Of a DNA stretch of 20,759 nt, positions 7,178 through 19,907 are shown in pieces (position 1 is the first letter of the stretch; each line of letters opens with the position of its first letter). Origin of the DNA: a virus; the IMG/VR virus record IMGVR_UViG_3300032322_001969, positions 1 through 20,759 of that record; one strand, given 5' to 3'. The notes under the pieces were generated by a model. That model saw only the letters and a list, made by a program, of their open reading frames with translations, was not told the origin of the DNA and ran no database searches. A program made the translations under genes and the position numbers.

Positions 7178-7762
7178 CTACTTCCGGCTGGGTGCTTTGG
7201 AATCTAGCAAACGTTGTACCGCGTCCCATTCGTCTTCAGGAACAAGTGCGATTATAACCGTGTCATTATTCGCTAACATCCCTGCTGATAACTTCACACC
7301 ATGTAGGTTAGCACCGTGTAAGGAAGTGTAACTAAGGTCAGCATTAAATAGGTCAGCCCCAGTTAGGTCAGCATCTCGAAGGTTAGCCCAACGTAGGTCA
7401 GCCCCGGCGAGGTTAGCACCATGTAAGTCAGTGCCCATCAGGTAAGCCTTGCGTAGGTCAGCCCCAGTTAGGTCAGCATCTCGAAGGTTAGCCTTAATGA
7501 GGCTAGCCCTAAATAAGTCAGCCCCGGTAAGGTTAGCCCCCGTGAGGTCAACCCCACGTAGGTAAGTCTCGTGTAAGATAGCCCCCGTGAGGTCAGCCCC
7601 GGTAAGGTTAGCCCCTTTGAGACTCACTCCACCCAGGTCAGTCCCCCTTAGGTCAACTCCATGTAAGTTCGCTCCGGTGAGGTTAACATTTGTCAGGTTA
7701 ATATCTCTAAAAACACGTTGTCCATCGGCATAGAGCCGTAACAGTTCTTCAGCGGTCATCAT
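7178..7762 (-). CDS. Pentapeptide-repeat protein 2, 194 aa
   Basis: After an N-terminal cap (TAEELLRLYADGQRVFRDIN) the protein is about 27 tandem A(D/N)LxG-type pentapeptides, residues 24-155, predicted to form a right-handed quadrilateral beta-helix. A C-terminal segment (VKLSAGMLAN, then IIALVPEDEWDAVQRLLDS) is shared with the neighbouring pentapeptide protein, so the two are paralogues. Some members of the superfamily (MfpA, Qnr) mimic DNA and bind gyrase; cyanobacterial ones are mostly uncharacterised, so the role here is unknown. The repeat coding DNA contains a 40-bp exact repeat 105 bases apart. Two adjacent ATGs exist (7762, 7759); comparison with the leader at 15279 favours 7759. No signal peptide is seen. 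Confidence 0.9.
   Translation of the reverse strand: MMTAEELLRLYADGQRVFRDINLTNVNLTGANLHGVDLRGTDLGGVSLKGANLTGADLTGAILHETYLRGVDLTGANLTGADLFRASLIKANLRDADLTGADLRKAYLMGTDLHGANLAGADLRWANLRDADLTGADLFNADLSYTSLHGANLHGVKLSAGMLANNDTVIIALVPEDEWDAVQRLLDSKAPSRK
7349..7493 (-). repeat. 40-bp exact direct repeat inside pentapeptide gene
   Basis: Positions 7349-7388 and 7454-7493 are identical over 40 bases, including silent positions. The offset of 105 bases is exactly 35 codons, or 7 pentapeptides. This points to a recent in-frame duplication or gene conversion that changed beta-helix length. Confidence 0.85.
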
Positions 7763-7792
7763 GTAGTCCTCATAGAAACGATGATGTTAATT

Positions 7793-7813
7793 GCTGGTTA
7801 GTAACTTCCCAGC
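7793..7813 (-). other. Conserved intergenic hairpin, copy B
   Basis: GCTGG (7793-7797) pairs with CCAGC (7809-7813) around the loop TTAGTAACTTC. The loop is identical to those at 14500 and 14897 while the stem differs by two compensated base pairs. It lies between the stop of the first pentapeptide gene (7821) and the start of the second (7762), with TAGTCT, a sequence also found upstream of other copies, on its 5' side in the transcript. Confidence 0.75.
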
Positions 7814-7820
7814 GGATAGA

Positions 7821-8393
7821 CTAGGATTCTAACAAACGTTTCACTGCACTCCATTTGTCTCTAGGAACAAGTGTAATTATGCTATCAACGTCTAGTGACA
7901 TCATTCCTGCTGACAACTTTACCCCCTGTATATTCGCTTTGCATAAAGTGATGCGAATGAGTTCAGCCTCATGCAGGTTAGCCTCATGTAAGTTAGCCCC
8001 ATGTAAATCAGCCTCCACTAGGCAAGCCCCGCTCAGGTTTGCCCTAGTCAGGTTCGACCCCGTGAGGTTCGCTTCGTGTAGATTCACATCATGCAGATTA
8101 GTCTCGATGAGATAAGCTTCCTGTATGTTAGCCTCACATAGATGAGCCATTGTGAGGTTAGCTTTATCGAGACAAGCACCGTTTAAGTTAGCTCTGGCTA
8201 GTTTAGCCCTTGTGAGGTCAGCACCCACAAGGTCAGCATTTTGGAGGTTTGCCTTCGTTAGGTCAGCCCCACTAAGATTAATCCCGGTGAGGACAGCATC
8301 CATCAGACAAACTCCCCTGAAGTTACGCTCTCCAGAGGCGTAGAGTTGTAGCAACTGTTCTTTCGTGATTGATTCACCTTGTAGTTTACTCAT
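7821..8393 (-). CDS. Pentapeptide-repeat protein 1, 190 aa
   Basis: This paralogue of the next gene has the same plan: an N-terminal cap (TKEQLLQLYASGERNFRGV), then about 26 pentapeptides of A(N/D)LxxA type through residue 155, then VKLSAGMMSL and IITLVPRDKWSAVKRLLES. The cap is typical of cyanobacterial pentapeptide proteins. Repeat units are more varied than in the neighbour, so the pair diverged well before this phage arose or has been under different constraint. The ATG is preceded by TAGGAGACAAG, a good ribosome binding site, and follows the 57-aa gene by 8 bases. Function is unknown; a DNA-mimic or gyrase-directed role is a family-based possibility only. Confidence 0.88.
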   Translation of the reverse strand: MSKLQGESITKEQLLQLYASGERNFRGVCLMDAVLTGINLSGADLTKANLQNADLVGADLTRAKLARANLNGACLDKANLTMAHLCEANIQEAYLIETNLHDVNLHEANLTGSNLTRANLSGACLVEADLHGANLHEANLHEAELIRITLCKANIQGVKLSAGMMSLDVDSIITLVPRDKWSAVKRLLES

Positions 8394-12589: not shown

Positions 12590-14134
12590 CTAAGAGAAAT
12601 AGGATTCCAATACGTTATCTTCCTCATCCTCATCATCATCATCCTCATCCTCTAGAAGGTCAACTGGCTCGTACTCTTCAGGCTCTAGAGCCTGGATTTC
12701 CGAAACAACGTTCCCCCAATCAACCCGGTCAACAATTGCCTCAAAGATTTCTCGTCCGATTGACTGCCTACGCGAATACTGGCGTAGGGATTTAGATTCT
12801 ACCAACAGGGTCAACTGAATCAGAACGTCAATGAAGTTAAAATCTCCACTAGACGGATAACGCTCCTTCAAGGGAATAGTTGAGAAATACTCTGAATTAA
12901 GGTCTTTCAGAGTTTCTTCCCAGTATGCGGAAGAAAACTCTGAAAATAAGAACTCAATCACAGAATGGATATTGTCCAGACTGAAATTATCCTTGTCAAT
13001 CTGTACGACGTTCAGTCCGTCTACAGTGTCGATATGAGCAGCATAGCCACTCAAGGATACTTCTAACATCCCCCAGAATACTGGAACCTTATGTTCCATG
13101 CCTGAAGCGTCTTTCTCCTTCCGTGAAGACTTGGGTTTGAAACCTTCTTCATAGACCAGACCCTCAAATGACTGGAGAACCTTATAAATCATCCTAGCCA
13201 GTTCCATCACCCAAGTAGTATTAGATGACAAACCAGACGAAAATCCAGTAACAGGGTCACAGCTTGCAGCCCATCCCTTGATACCACTCTGGGCGGTTTG
13301 TGGTTGAGGAACACCAGCAATAGACGTACACACCATTCTCCTATCAACAGCATCAAGAAACAACCTAACAAAGTAATCTTCTGCCGTAAAACGAAGGTCT
13401 TTATCCTTCTCCCGATGCCCTTCCCTGAGTGCAATAAGGTATGTTTGCGGATTACCGCGAACAATACCCTTGATGCTATCGGCTACAGCCATTTGTTCGC
13501 CCCTAGTGGCTTCCCTAGAACCTAACGCTCCAGCACCACCATTGGTCCCCAAGATGAGGTCAGAAACAACACGATTCATTTTGCTTTTCCACTTGTTCCC
13601 GTAACGGGATTGGAAAGCATCCTCGTCAAGGGTCTTGACGATACAGGTAACTTTCGTCTGGTAAAGAACCGCAGGCGGAACCTTAGAGTAAACTGCTTCC
13701 AACAAGATGGCGATAGACCTGTGACGTGCAGCAACAAGAATCAACTCACCATCGGGATATCGTACTAGCACGGGTTCAGACAGAAGCGGTGAACCATGAA
13801 GTAAACCTACTTCTTTATCGTTAAGCAGTTTGGCTACCTTGTTGGAATTGACTTGGAACTGATGGGACGTTGAAGCAATGAATGCTTTACACAAATCTTC
13901 AATAGAGATTTCTTCCACTGTGGTTTCGATGAACTGGTGTCGTCCCTGAAACCAGGTTTCATCTTTTGCAGATTTGTGTAATCCACTGGCAAACGAGATT
14001 AGGTCTTTATCAGCAGTAGTTCCTCTCTTAGTCTTTTTCACACCGAACACACCAGACCTGAATTCAGAGTTTTCACTGACCCATTCTTTAGGGATGTCAG
14101 CGGATTGGAAAACCTGACTGATTAAGCTTGCCAT
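12590..14134 (-). CDS. ParB/sulfiredoxin-fold domain protein with acidic tail, 514 aa
   Basis: Residues 118-146, LSEPVLVRYPDGELILVAAR then HRSIAILLEAV, resemble the ParB/Srx fold signature (P-x-x-VR-x-x-dG-x-y-x-L-V-A-G-E-R-R-x-x-A), with ARHR replacing the GERR box. ParB-fold proteins bind CTP, ATP or DNA, and some phage members are nucleases. The large middle region contains no motif I know, and the last 30 residues are extremely acidic (LLEDEDDDDEDEEDNVLESY). It could be a nucleoid- or segregation-directed protein or a phage DNA-processing factor. AGGAG lies 8 bases before the ATG in a leader (TTACATCATG) like those of neighbouring genes, and a strong terminator follows the stop. Confidence 0.5.
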   Translation of the reverse strand: MASLISQVFQSADIPKEWVSENSEFRSGVFGVKKTKRGTTADKDLISFASGLHKSAKDETWFQGRHQFIETTVEEISIEDLCKAFIASTSHQFQVNSNKVAKLLNDKEVGLLHGSPLLSEPVLVRYPDGELILVAARHRSIAILLEAVYSKVPPAVLYQTKVTCIVKTLDEDAFQSRYGNKWKSKMNRVVSDLILGTNGGAGALGSREATRGEQMAVADSIKGIVRGNPQTYLIALREGHREKDKDLRFTAEDYFVRLFLDAVDRRMVCTSIAGVPQPQTAQSGIKGWAASCDPVTGFSSGLSSNTTWVMELARMIYKVLQSFEGLVYEEGFKPKSSRKEKDASGMEHKVPVFWGMLEVSLSGYAAHIDTVDGLNVVQIDKDNFSLDNIHSVIEFLFSEFSSAYWEETLKDLNSEYFSTIPLKERYPSSGDFNFIDVLIQLTLLVESKSLRQYSRRQSIGREIFEAIVDRVDWGNVVSEIQALEPEEYEPVDLLEDEDDDDEDEEDNVLESYFS

Positions 14135-15918: not shown

Positions 15919-16279
15919 GATGTGTGTGTCCTCTATATGTGTACGTGGTGTGTGTGTGTCGTGGGGTGTGCCCCCGTTCGACTGAGAAGACTGTAGCGTA
16001 GCGGGAGGGAGAAAATCTGATTTTGTAATAATTCGTTACAATTGAGGGATGGTTGTCAGAACGGACTAAAAACACCTATTTTTTGTACCTATTTTACCTG
16101 TTTTATGGGGTTTCAAGGGTTCACTCTCATTTTTTCCGGGTGTGCGAGGGGTTTCGAGGGAGGTACGGGGGAATAACAGGTGTAGGTATATTATGACTTA
16201 GACACTCAGAAATTTTGCATAAAAATTTTAGTACCACAGCTAAGGGGAAACCAGATAACAGTAATAGGAGTTTTCGTAC
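15919..16279. other. Leader of the left arm, low-complexity sequence
   Basis: No protein gene is supported. The part next to the gene is GT-rich, with a (GT)6 run near 15948. Further out are TTGTAA-n7-TTACAA (16023-16041), two copies of ACCTATTTT, and two of GGGGTTTC(A/G)AGGG (16107-16119, 16148-16160). The leftward promoter for the 15918 gene should be here, but I cannot pick a convincing -35/-10 pair. Confidence 0.5.
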
Positions 16280-16467
16280 ACCCCCCTATATAGTAAGGAA
16301 TATATATAACATGTAATAAACTTGTAATTACAAGTGTTAACAAGTAATAAAAAAAAAAGAATTCCATGTAATAACAAGTAATTATTAAACAAGTAATTAC
16401 AAGTAAATACAAGTAATAAATACAAGTAATTACAAGTATATATATATATATATATATATAGGGGGGT
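16280..16467. repeat. Iteron-like array bounded by 13-bp inverted repeats
   Basis: ACCCCCCTATATA (16280-16292) and TATATAGGGGGGT (16455-16467) are exact inverted repeats enclosing a very AT-rich block. Inside are eight ACAAGT copies, mostly ACAAGTAAT (starting 16330, 16340, 16374, 16389, 16399, 16409, 16422, 16432), several exactly 10 bp apart. There is also a 14-bp palindrome CTTGTAATTACAAG (16321-16334), an A-run (16350-16358) and a (TA)12 tract (16437-16460). Direct repeats with one-turn spacing next to easily melted DNA are typical of replication origins or cooperative protein-binding arrays. Confidence 0.7.
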
Positions 16468-16495
16468 CTTTGGAAACTTTTTTATTTGGGATAGG

Positions 16496-16518
16496 GATAG
16501 TGTATATATTACACTATC
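16496..16518. promoter_or_regulatory. Palindrome GATAGTGTA-n5-TACACTATC
   Basis: Two perfect 9-base arms surround TATAT. The arrangement looks like an operator for a dimeric DNA-binding protein in the divergent region. It has no U-tract and no nearby upstream gene, so a terminator is unlikely. Confidence 0.55.
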
Positions 16519-16570
16519 TATTTCAGGACTTTTTAGGGTAGTTTTTATATGTTTTGAGATAAACACTATA

Positions 16571-16616
16571 GGTACTCAAGATGGTATACCTTAAGTAGTA
16601 ATATACCATAAGTACC
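16571..16616. promoter_or_regulatory. Two-step interrupted palindrome
   Basis: GGTACT (16571-16576) pairs with AGTACC (16611-16616), and inside it ATGGTATA (16581-16588) pairs with TATACCAT (16602-16609). The inner left arm extends into GGTATACC, itself a palindrome. TACTCAAGA (16573-16581) is also inverted at 16640-16648. This dyad lies about 80 bases before the first rightward gene and probably regulates it or forms a leader structure. Confidence 0.55.
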
Positions 16617-16695
16617 CCTAAATATCCCTATATATATAGTCTTGAGTAGTGTTAAGCTAATAATAGAGAGTACACGAACCATTTGGTAACACTCT

Positions 16696-16908: not shown

Positions 16909-16923
16909 AGTCATCTAAACTGT

Positions 16924-16967
16924 CTGTAAACTATCTGTAAACTATCTGTAAACTATCTGTAAACTAT
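16924..16967 (+). repeat. Four tandem 11-bp repeats
   Basis: CTGTAAACTAT is repeated four times without variation, preceded by a decayed unit (CTAAACTGT). Period 11 is close to one DNA turn. Each unit contains TAAACT, a reasonable -10-like hexamer, and TTGAAG at 16905-16910 lies 16 bases before the first. It lies between the 70-aa gene and the coiled-coil gene. Confidence 0.85.
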
Positions 16968-18239: not shown

Positions 18240-19907
18240 ATGAGTGATGAGAACTATAGACTAAGAGTTAGAGCTTTACATGACCCTAGAGTGTTGTGTA
18301 ACTTACTACGTTTTCATGGTGGTTGGAAAAATTTCTCAAAAACTATACATAATGAACTTATAGCCCATCTTGCTAGACCACAGTTAGTAGACCCTTCTGA
18401 GTCTAGTTTGTATCGTAAGCGTGTTAATTTACTACCTAGAGGTCATCTTAAATCAACAGTTTCCGTTCTAATTATTCTATGGAGACTCTATAGAAACCCT
18501 AATCTTAGAATTTTAATCGGATGTGATGATAAAGAACTAGCAAAATCATTTCTTCGGGAAGTTAAATTCTATTTAGAGTCTACAGAACTTCAAGAGAAAG
18601 TGTGGCATAACAGACCACATATACCAGGTGTTCTTGTTCCAGTTATTGATGCTGCTGGTAAACGTGAAAGAATCGGTAATAGAGACTTATACGTTGAGCA
18701 GTTAGCTGAAAAAGTAGTCTGGTCATCTGAAATGATTTATCTAGTTAGACAACACTGGATGAAAGAACCGTCTATTGGTACTATCAGTGTTGACCAATCC
18801 GGTACTGGAGACCACTTTGACTTGTTGGTGTTAGATGATATTGTTAACTTCTATAATTCTGATACTCCTAAAAAAGCAGAAAAGATATTCACATGGGCTG
18901 CGGATATGACATCCGTACTAGACCCTGCAAAGTGGATGGATATAGGGTCATATAAAGACCCTGAGACTGGTGAGAATGTTAAATTTGGTGAGTATGTTGG
19001 AGGTGAACAGATTCTTAATGGGACGCTGTACTACAAGTGGGACTACTGGCACCATGTGATGAAAACACAAGCCACTAGAAAATTTGTTATCCTTAAGAAG
19101 AACATTTATATAAATGGAGTAGATAGCTCTAACGGATACATATATCCTGAAAAGTTTAACCCAGACTACGAATCTGAAGTTAGAGAAGACTGTATTACTT
19201 TCCGTAGATTCTCTTGTCAGTATTTACTCAAAGTAATCGATAGTAGCACTCAAGTTCTTGTACAAGACGACATTCAAATATATAATCCAGAAACTATTGA
19301 AGTTACTTCACATACAGGAGTGTTCGTAACACTCTACAGGGACATTAAGAAGCAGATAAGACCTATTTTAACTATAGATATAGCTATTTCTCAATTAGAG
19401 AAAGCTGACTCATCAGCAATAACCGTAGGTGGTGTTGATGATGAAGATAATTTAGTAGTGTTAGACGCTTTCAAAGGTAAAGTTCTACCAGATACATTTT
19501 TACAAGAGGTATTTAAGAGAATTGAAGAGTTTAATATCACTAAGTTAATAGTTGAAGGAGGTGTTGGGTACCAGGATTCCTTAATATACGCTATTAGAGC
19601 TGAAGCAACTAGACAGCAAAAATTGATTCTTATTGACAGATACGTTCCAAGAGGTGATAAGAAGACTAACATTGAGTTAGTTCTACAACCTGTTATGGTT
19701 CATAAAAAGTTATGGATGCCACAAAAGTTATTAAGTAAGTATGAATCAGAATTTGAATTTTTTCCACAAGAAGGTGGAGAAGATGACTTACTAGACACTC
19801 TTAAACTATTAAGGATGTACTCTAAGAAACTGGTGGTAAACAAGTCAGCAAATTCTCAAGGTACTCGTCATTTAACAGTGAATACTAGATATGGAGGGTG
19901 TCGATAA
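18240..19907 (+). CDS. Terminase large subunit (T7 gp19-like)
   Basis: The protein, 555 residues, has Walker A LLPRGHLKST at 64-73, which is the T7-type form (PRGHxKS), and Walker B DLLVLDDI at 194-201. The C-terminal RNase-H-like nuclease has the expected acidic positions: D380 in ILTIDIAIS, E439 in LIVEGG and D516 in GEDDLLDTL. It would cut concatemers and drive DNA into proheads through the portal encoded next. The start lacks a Shine-Dalgarno sequence and follows a terminator-like hairpin, so expression may rely on read-through or structure change. The stop is one base before the portal ATG. All catalytic residues appear intact. Confidence 0.93.
   Translation: MSDENYRLRVRALHDPRVLCNLLRFHGGWKNFSKTIHNELIAHLARPQLVDPSESSLYRKRVNLLPRGHLKSTVSVLIILWRLYRNPNLRILIGCDDKELAKSFLREVKFYLESTELQEKVWHNRPHIPGVLVPVIDAAGKRERIGNRDLYVEQLAEKVVWSSEMIYLVRQHWMKEPSIGTISVDQSGTGDHFDLLVLDDIVNFYNSDTPKKAEKIFTWAADMTSVLDPAKWMDIGSYKDPETGENVKFGEYVGGEQILNGTLYYKWDYWHHVMKTQATRKFVILKKNIYINGVDSSNGYIYPEKFNPDYESEVREDCITFRRFSCQYLLKVIDSSTQVLVQDDIQIYNPETIEVTSHTGVFVTLYRDIKKQIRPILTIDIAISQLEKADSSAITVGGVDDEDNLVVLDAFKGKVLPDTFLQEVFKRIEEFNITKLIVEGGVGYQDSLIYAIRAEATRQQKLILIDRYVPRGDKKTNIELVLQPVMVHKKLWMPQKLLSKYESEFEFFPQEGGEDDLLDTLKLLRMYSKKLVVNKSANSQGTRHLTVNTRYGGCR

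Follow-up and report, generated by a model that had tools for sequence, protein, structure and literature searches.

A phased short-repeat array next to a predicted genome end in a viral fragment related to cyanopodoviruses

The repeat block at positions 16280..16467 of the window, by which we mean the whole 20,759-base viral fragment analyzed here (the entire record IMGVR_UViG_3300032322_001969 of IMG/VR), contains a phased array of a single core adjacent to a terminus signal, an arrangement also present in Mastigocladus phage CHP58. The block may represent the right-end repeat array of the concatemer junction in a T7-like podovirus with direct terminal repeats (DTRs), at the position of the right-end short repeats of T7 and T3, an assignment that we hold with moderate confidence. 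Most likely, the array is lineage-specific and belongs to the machinery of the genome end instead of being an isolated origin. Terminal short repeats (SRR and SRL) are known in T7-like phages, and the new unit, together with its C6/G6 inverted flanks, is a variant of these repeats.

Organization of the repeat block

The array itself (16309..16440, + strand) is built on the core (T)ACAAGTAA(T) and comprises eight exact ACAAGT units, one ACATGT variant and one inverted copy. The exact units are located on the + strand at 16330, 16340, 16374, 16389, 16399, 16409, 16422 and 16432, with spacings of 10, 34, 15, 10, 10, 13 and 10, and are preceded by ACATGT at 16309 and by the inverted ACTTGT at 16320. 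The eight units, several of them at 10-bp spacing, had been recognized in an earlier note on this DNA, and their occurrence is beyond chance: the counts of 6-, 7-, 8- and 9-mer words in the block were unmatched by dinucleotide shuffles (0/500 for each word length). All five copies of ACAAGTAAT in the window fall within the block, where 0.42 copies were expected for the window as a whole. Two opposed units form a perfect palindrome, ACTTGTAATTACAAGT, which the same note had given as 14 bp long and which in fact spans 16 bp (16320..16335). The A-run and the (TA)12 stretch mentioned there correspond to an A10 tract at 16349..16358 (+ strand) and to positions 16437..16460, respectively.

The block is bounded, as originally described, by exact 13-bp inverted repeats, ACCCCCCTATATA on the left (16280..16292) and TATATAGGGGGGT on the right (16455..16467), both given as on the + strand. 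This is the longest inverted repeat in the gap between the gene arms, and none of 300 shuffles of the gap reached 13 bp. Since each arm of the repeat is partly TA repeat, its informative part is the C6/G6 portion. The proposed placement between two transcription arms also holds, the block being situated between the leftward replication arm and the rightward terminase/portal arm. To our knowledge, an ACAAGT-type unit fits no known origin box.

Other repeats were observed nearby. The space from the array to the first rightward ORF contains an inverted repeat, GATAGTGTA/TACACTATC (16494-16518), and a long hairpin, ACTCAAGA...TCTTGAGT (16575-16646). An 11-bp tandem repeat, TAAACTATCTG, with 4.7 copies and 97% matches, lies between the first two rightward ORFs (16916-16967).

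Relatives of the window and the expected junction of genome ends

On the rightward arm, a T7-like terminase large subunit is succeeded by a portal protein that was matched in relatives; a primase-helicase and a DNA polymerase of family A are encoded on the leftward arm. The terminase large subunit (18240..19907, + strand; phrog_38), which served as the query for relatives, is 36-39% identical to those of Anabaena phage A-4L, Phormidium phage Pf-WMP3 and Arthronema virus TR020, members of the Saffermanviridae. By this protein, the window is a relative of the Saffermanviridae cyanopodoviruses, and the kinship of its terminase with those of DTR podoviruses is that expected for a T7-like DTR podovirus genome end. 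When the terminase of the window was used as a tight query, no near relative was retrieved; the terminase search of bacterial genomes yielded two distant matches in metagenome-assembled genomes that were of no use, and the gap had no DNA similarity to phage records.

The genomes of A-4L, Pf-WMP3 and TR020 have their ends where the two arms meet, and their DTRs measure 810, 234 and 216 bp, respectively. Assembly usually collapses a DTR, and the gap between the arms of the window (15919-16695) is therefore the expected end junction in a collapsed assembly; to judge from gene order, it should be the site of the joined ends. The predicted inner side, i.e., the start of the terminal repeat together with the leader of the leftward early arm, occupies 15919..16196 (- strand) by comparison with the same three phages, whose repeats begin here; the far end of the repeat is not placeable.

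A bipartite terminus signal

A run of G residues (G6 or G7, mostly followed by AA) recurs in the gap of the relatives. A second block was learned by expectation maximization on 27 aligned sites from relatives, with the window left out. The resulting motif consists of G6, a median of 35 nt and then AAAATTTTTACA, with the spacing kept within 2 nt at most sites, and its log-likelihood was 87.9, compared to 38 to 50.2 in shuffled controls; the training sites were picked by their G-run, such that the learning tests the second block and the spacing, the G-run itself excepted. Scanning with this model recovered the held-out loci CHP58, L022, L028, L044, L052 and L059, among which L022, L028 and L044 carry only G5. 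Three further held-out loci (L030, L036 and L080) were given lower weight, being closely related to loci of the training set. Many loci did not contain a good site in the model scan, in part because the contig stops short of the gap.

The position of the DTR end relative to the G-run was taken from the ends of database records. The end follows the run by 25 nt in TR020 and T7 and by 26 nt in A-4L and Pf-WMP3, with shorter distances in Pf-WMP4 and LPP-1. Seen from within the repeat, a C-run of at least four residues begins at DTR nucleotides 19-30 in 11 of 11 DTR podovirus lineages from three families (T7, SP6, P-SSP7, Syn5, phiKMV, TR020, A-4L, Pf-WMP3, LPP-1, ICBM1 and VpV262), where 0.53 would be expected from shuffles; Syn5, phiKMV and VpV262 were added once the pattern was known from the others, and the corresponding P value of ~2e-16 is optimistic, because the range of 19-30 was fixed on lineages other than these three. 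An A/T tract just beyond the DTR end is usual and less regular than the G-run, and a run of six A/T residues outside the end was lacking in Pf-WMP3, LPP-2 and P-SSP7. As read from these sites and record ends, the terminus signal is bipartite: a G-run, ~25 nt, the DTR end and then an A/T tract.

In the window, the only site that fits the rule has its G-run, GGGGGAA, at 16167..16173 (+ strand) and its outer A/T block, in two copies (AAATTTTGCATAA and AAATTTTAG), at 16208..16231 (+ strand). With the window held out of training, this was the top site of the whole window in the model scan (at 16172, 21.0 bits; GGGGGAA plus the A/T block from 16208), and the simple rule gave a single fit (16167-16219) with 0.05 expected. 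The DTR terminus is accordingly predicted at 16196/16197, with the cut 25 nt past the G-run, on the basis of the record ends of T7, T3, phiKMV, VpV262, TR020, A-4L and Pf-WMP3. The sequence outside this predicted end, CTTAGACACTCAGAAATTTTG, is like that of T7, TAGTCACTCAGATTTTTATGG. The G6 run at 16461, within the right inverted repeat, was first considered as the terminus box because in relatives an array immediately precedes a box of this kind. This assignment was rejected, as no A/T block is found at the required distance and the G5 box at 16167 is a far better fit.

A DTR with a conserved, GC-rich 5' end had been noted earlier for cobaviruses only (PMC6775973). No report of the wider G-run and A/T terminus pattern was found in the searchable literature, which misses most subscription journals, and the wider signal may be undescribed so far.

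Some variations on the signal were also observed. The outer A/T block occurs in two or three copies (AAAATTTTGCA-type) in L044 (2390-2500), L022 (1025-1070), L115 (5110-5140) and the window (16208-16231). In TR020 (L002, 44530-44620), a G7 run faces the C6 run of the terminus signal across the DTR end, ~60 bp apart. In L048 and L038, a C-run occurs within 30 bp after the G-run, with a palindrome-like stretch in between.

Repeat arrays around termini in T7-like phages and in CHP58

The block lies on the terminase side of the predicted end and starts at a distance of 83 nt from it, the first unit following at 112 nt. If the end is placed as predicted, phased short repeats thus lie within ~300 bp of the terminal repeat boundary, as do repeats of the SRR/SRL type. 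In T7, CCTAAAG-type units, which we take by name to be the SRL/SRR repeats, were found at 39621-39706, i.e., 72-157 nt outside the end defined by the DTR start at 39778, and a longer array is present at the left end; the outer T7 array fell short of significance in the array test. Significant arrays were detected on both sides in T3, ICBM1 and phiKMV, and on the inner side in SP6. None was detected in Syn5, P-SSP7, VpV262 or Pf-WMP4, such that arrays are not obligatory. Among the relatives of the window, significant arrays were present on the inner (early) side in 13 of 38 loci and on the outer side in 6 of 40, compared to 3 of 62 background segments, and the units vary from phage to phage.

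The window thus resembles T7 and T3 in having short phased units adjoining the terminal repeat, 72-157 nt outside the end in T7 and at least 112 nt outside it in the window. It differs from them in its unit (ACAAGTAAT versus CCTAAAG), in a spacing of mostly 10-15 bp versus 12-13 bp, in the 13-bp inverted repeats that enclose the array along with A10 and (TA)12, and in the lack of a comparable array on the early side. Beyond single chance copies, the window shares no 7-mer unit with T7, the CCTAAAG unit included. Relative to the G-run, the array is on the early side in most of the array-bearing relatives and on the terminase side in the window.

The closest counterpart is provided by CHP58, in which six 19-bp units, GGGGCATACAAGTATAACT, with the core TACAAGTA, start 140 nt past the G-run. 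The core TACAAGTA is shared with the window in the same orientation and at about the same offset from the G-run (137 nt for the first unit of the window, the variant one), and in both cases an A/T-rich stretch follows the array. In contrast to the window, the CHP58 array has a regular 19-bp unit, GGGGCATACAAGTATAACT, and lacks the enclosing C6/G6 inverted repeat. Permutation of the CHP58 unit columns produced the shared core in 0.3% of trials for a 7-mer and in 0.15% for an 8-mer, and the core is absent from 12 other arrays; since about ten arrays were compared, the true chance of such sharing is closer to 2 to 3%.

The earlier note had named lack of conservation among related phages as a refuting outcome, and this was checked in part: the exact ACAAGTAAT array was not found in any related viral contig, whereas arrays with different units often adjoin the terminus signal and one relative, CHP58, has the core in common with the window. 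Exact iteron searches of viral contigs returned nine matches that do not share the junction, and a search of viral contigs for the CHP58-type unit returned none.

Possible roles of the block

The earlier note had offered two readings, a replication origin and a cooperative binding array. The 10-bp phasing, the single core and its presence at about the same place in CHP58 argue for the latter, and the former gained no support. An iteron-type origin, in which an initiator would bind the phased units and open the adjacent (TA)12, is nevertheless given some weight, although we regard it as rather unlikely. Phased direct repeats adjoining an A-tract and A/T-rich DNA are the anatomy of iteron origins in plasmids and theta-replicating phages, and the phage encodes its own primase-helicase and DNA polymerase. 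The (TA)12 stretch here and the A/T-rich stretch after the CHP58 array keep this role in consideration, the sequence itself being compatible with either an origin or end maturation. Unlike those origins, however, the array is located at a predicted genome end, and neither Pfam nor PHROG identified an initiator among the scanned ORFs, several of which have no known family. In addition, the GC-skew minimum is found at ~14 kb, away from the array (although the skew tracks gene direction anyway), and a position ~110 bp outside the terminus signal is better explained by end maturation.

Control of transcription of the divergent arms, e.g., of the rightward late arm, by an operator array appears more doubtful still. 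The location between the arms, 229 nt ahead of the first rightward ORF, and the 10-bp phasing would be suitable for such a role, but promoter-like matches in the gap are at the level of shuffles (4 versus 3.8), and arrays elsewhere adjoin the terminus signal. Least probable is a functionless expansion of an A/T-rich spacer by neutral slippage. Short repeats do occur in neighboring spacers, such as TAAACTATCTG (4.7 copies at 16916-16967), yet the units of the block have unequal spacers and are partly inverted rather than strictly tandem, their core is found again in CHP58 at a similar offset, and slippage would leave the 13-bp inverted flanks unexplained.

If the block is a right-end array, a phage or host protein would bind the ACAAGT units cooperatively along one face of the helix. 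The complex, together with the adjacent A/T-rich and inverted-repeat DNA, could help the terminase or the replication/recombination machinery to recognize the junction, and could likewise assist in completing or cutting the terminal repeat. The unit would evolve fast between phages, while the G-run and A/T terminus signal would be retained. More tentatively, and with slightly more doubt than belief, we suggest that a G-run, 25 nt, the cut and an A/T tract form a left-terminus signal common to T7-like DTR podoviruses across the Autographiviridae, Saffermanviridae and Zobellviridae, which would allow genome ends to be read in collapsed metagenomic assemblies, and that fast-evolving arrays such as ACAAGTAAT provide the same end-forming complex with lineage-specific docking sites.

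The completion of the left terminal repeat before packaging in T7-like phages is described as incompletely understood (PMC3350473). A sequence-readable terminus signal with surrounding arrays would render end formation testable in many phages, and would serve as a means to orient collapsed metagenomic podovirus genomes.

Additional ORFs of the leftward strand

Two observations concern proteins encoded on the - strand. A 514-aa ORF (12590-14134) has no Pfam, PHROG or phage-record match, and a sequence query with the orphan protein gave no matches; its segment ILVAARHRSIAILL is, in our impression, reminiscent of ParB-like motifs. Two adjacent ORFs of the replication arm (7178-8393) contain pentapeptide-repeat-like A(D/N)LxxA sequences.
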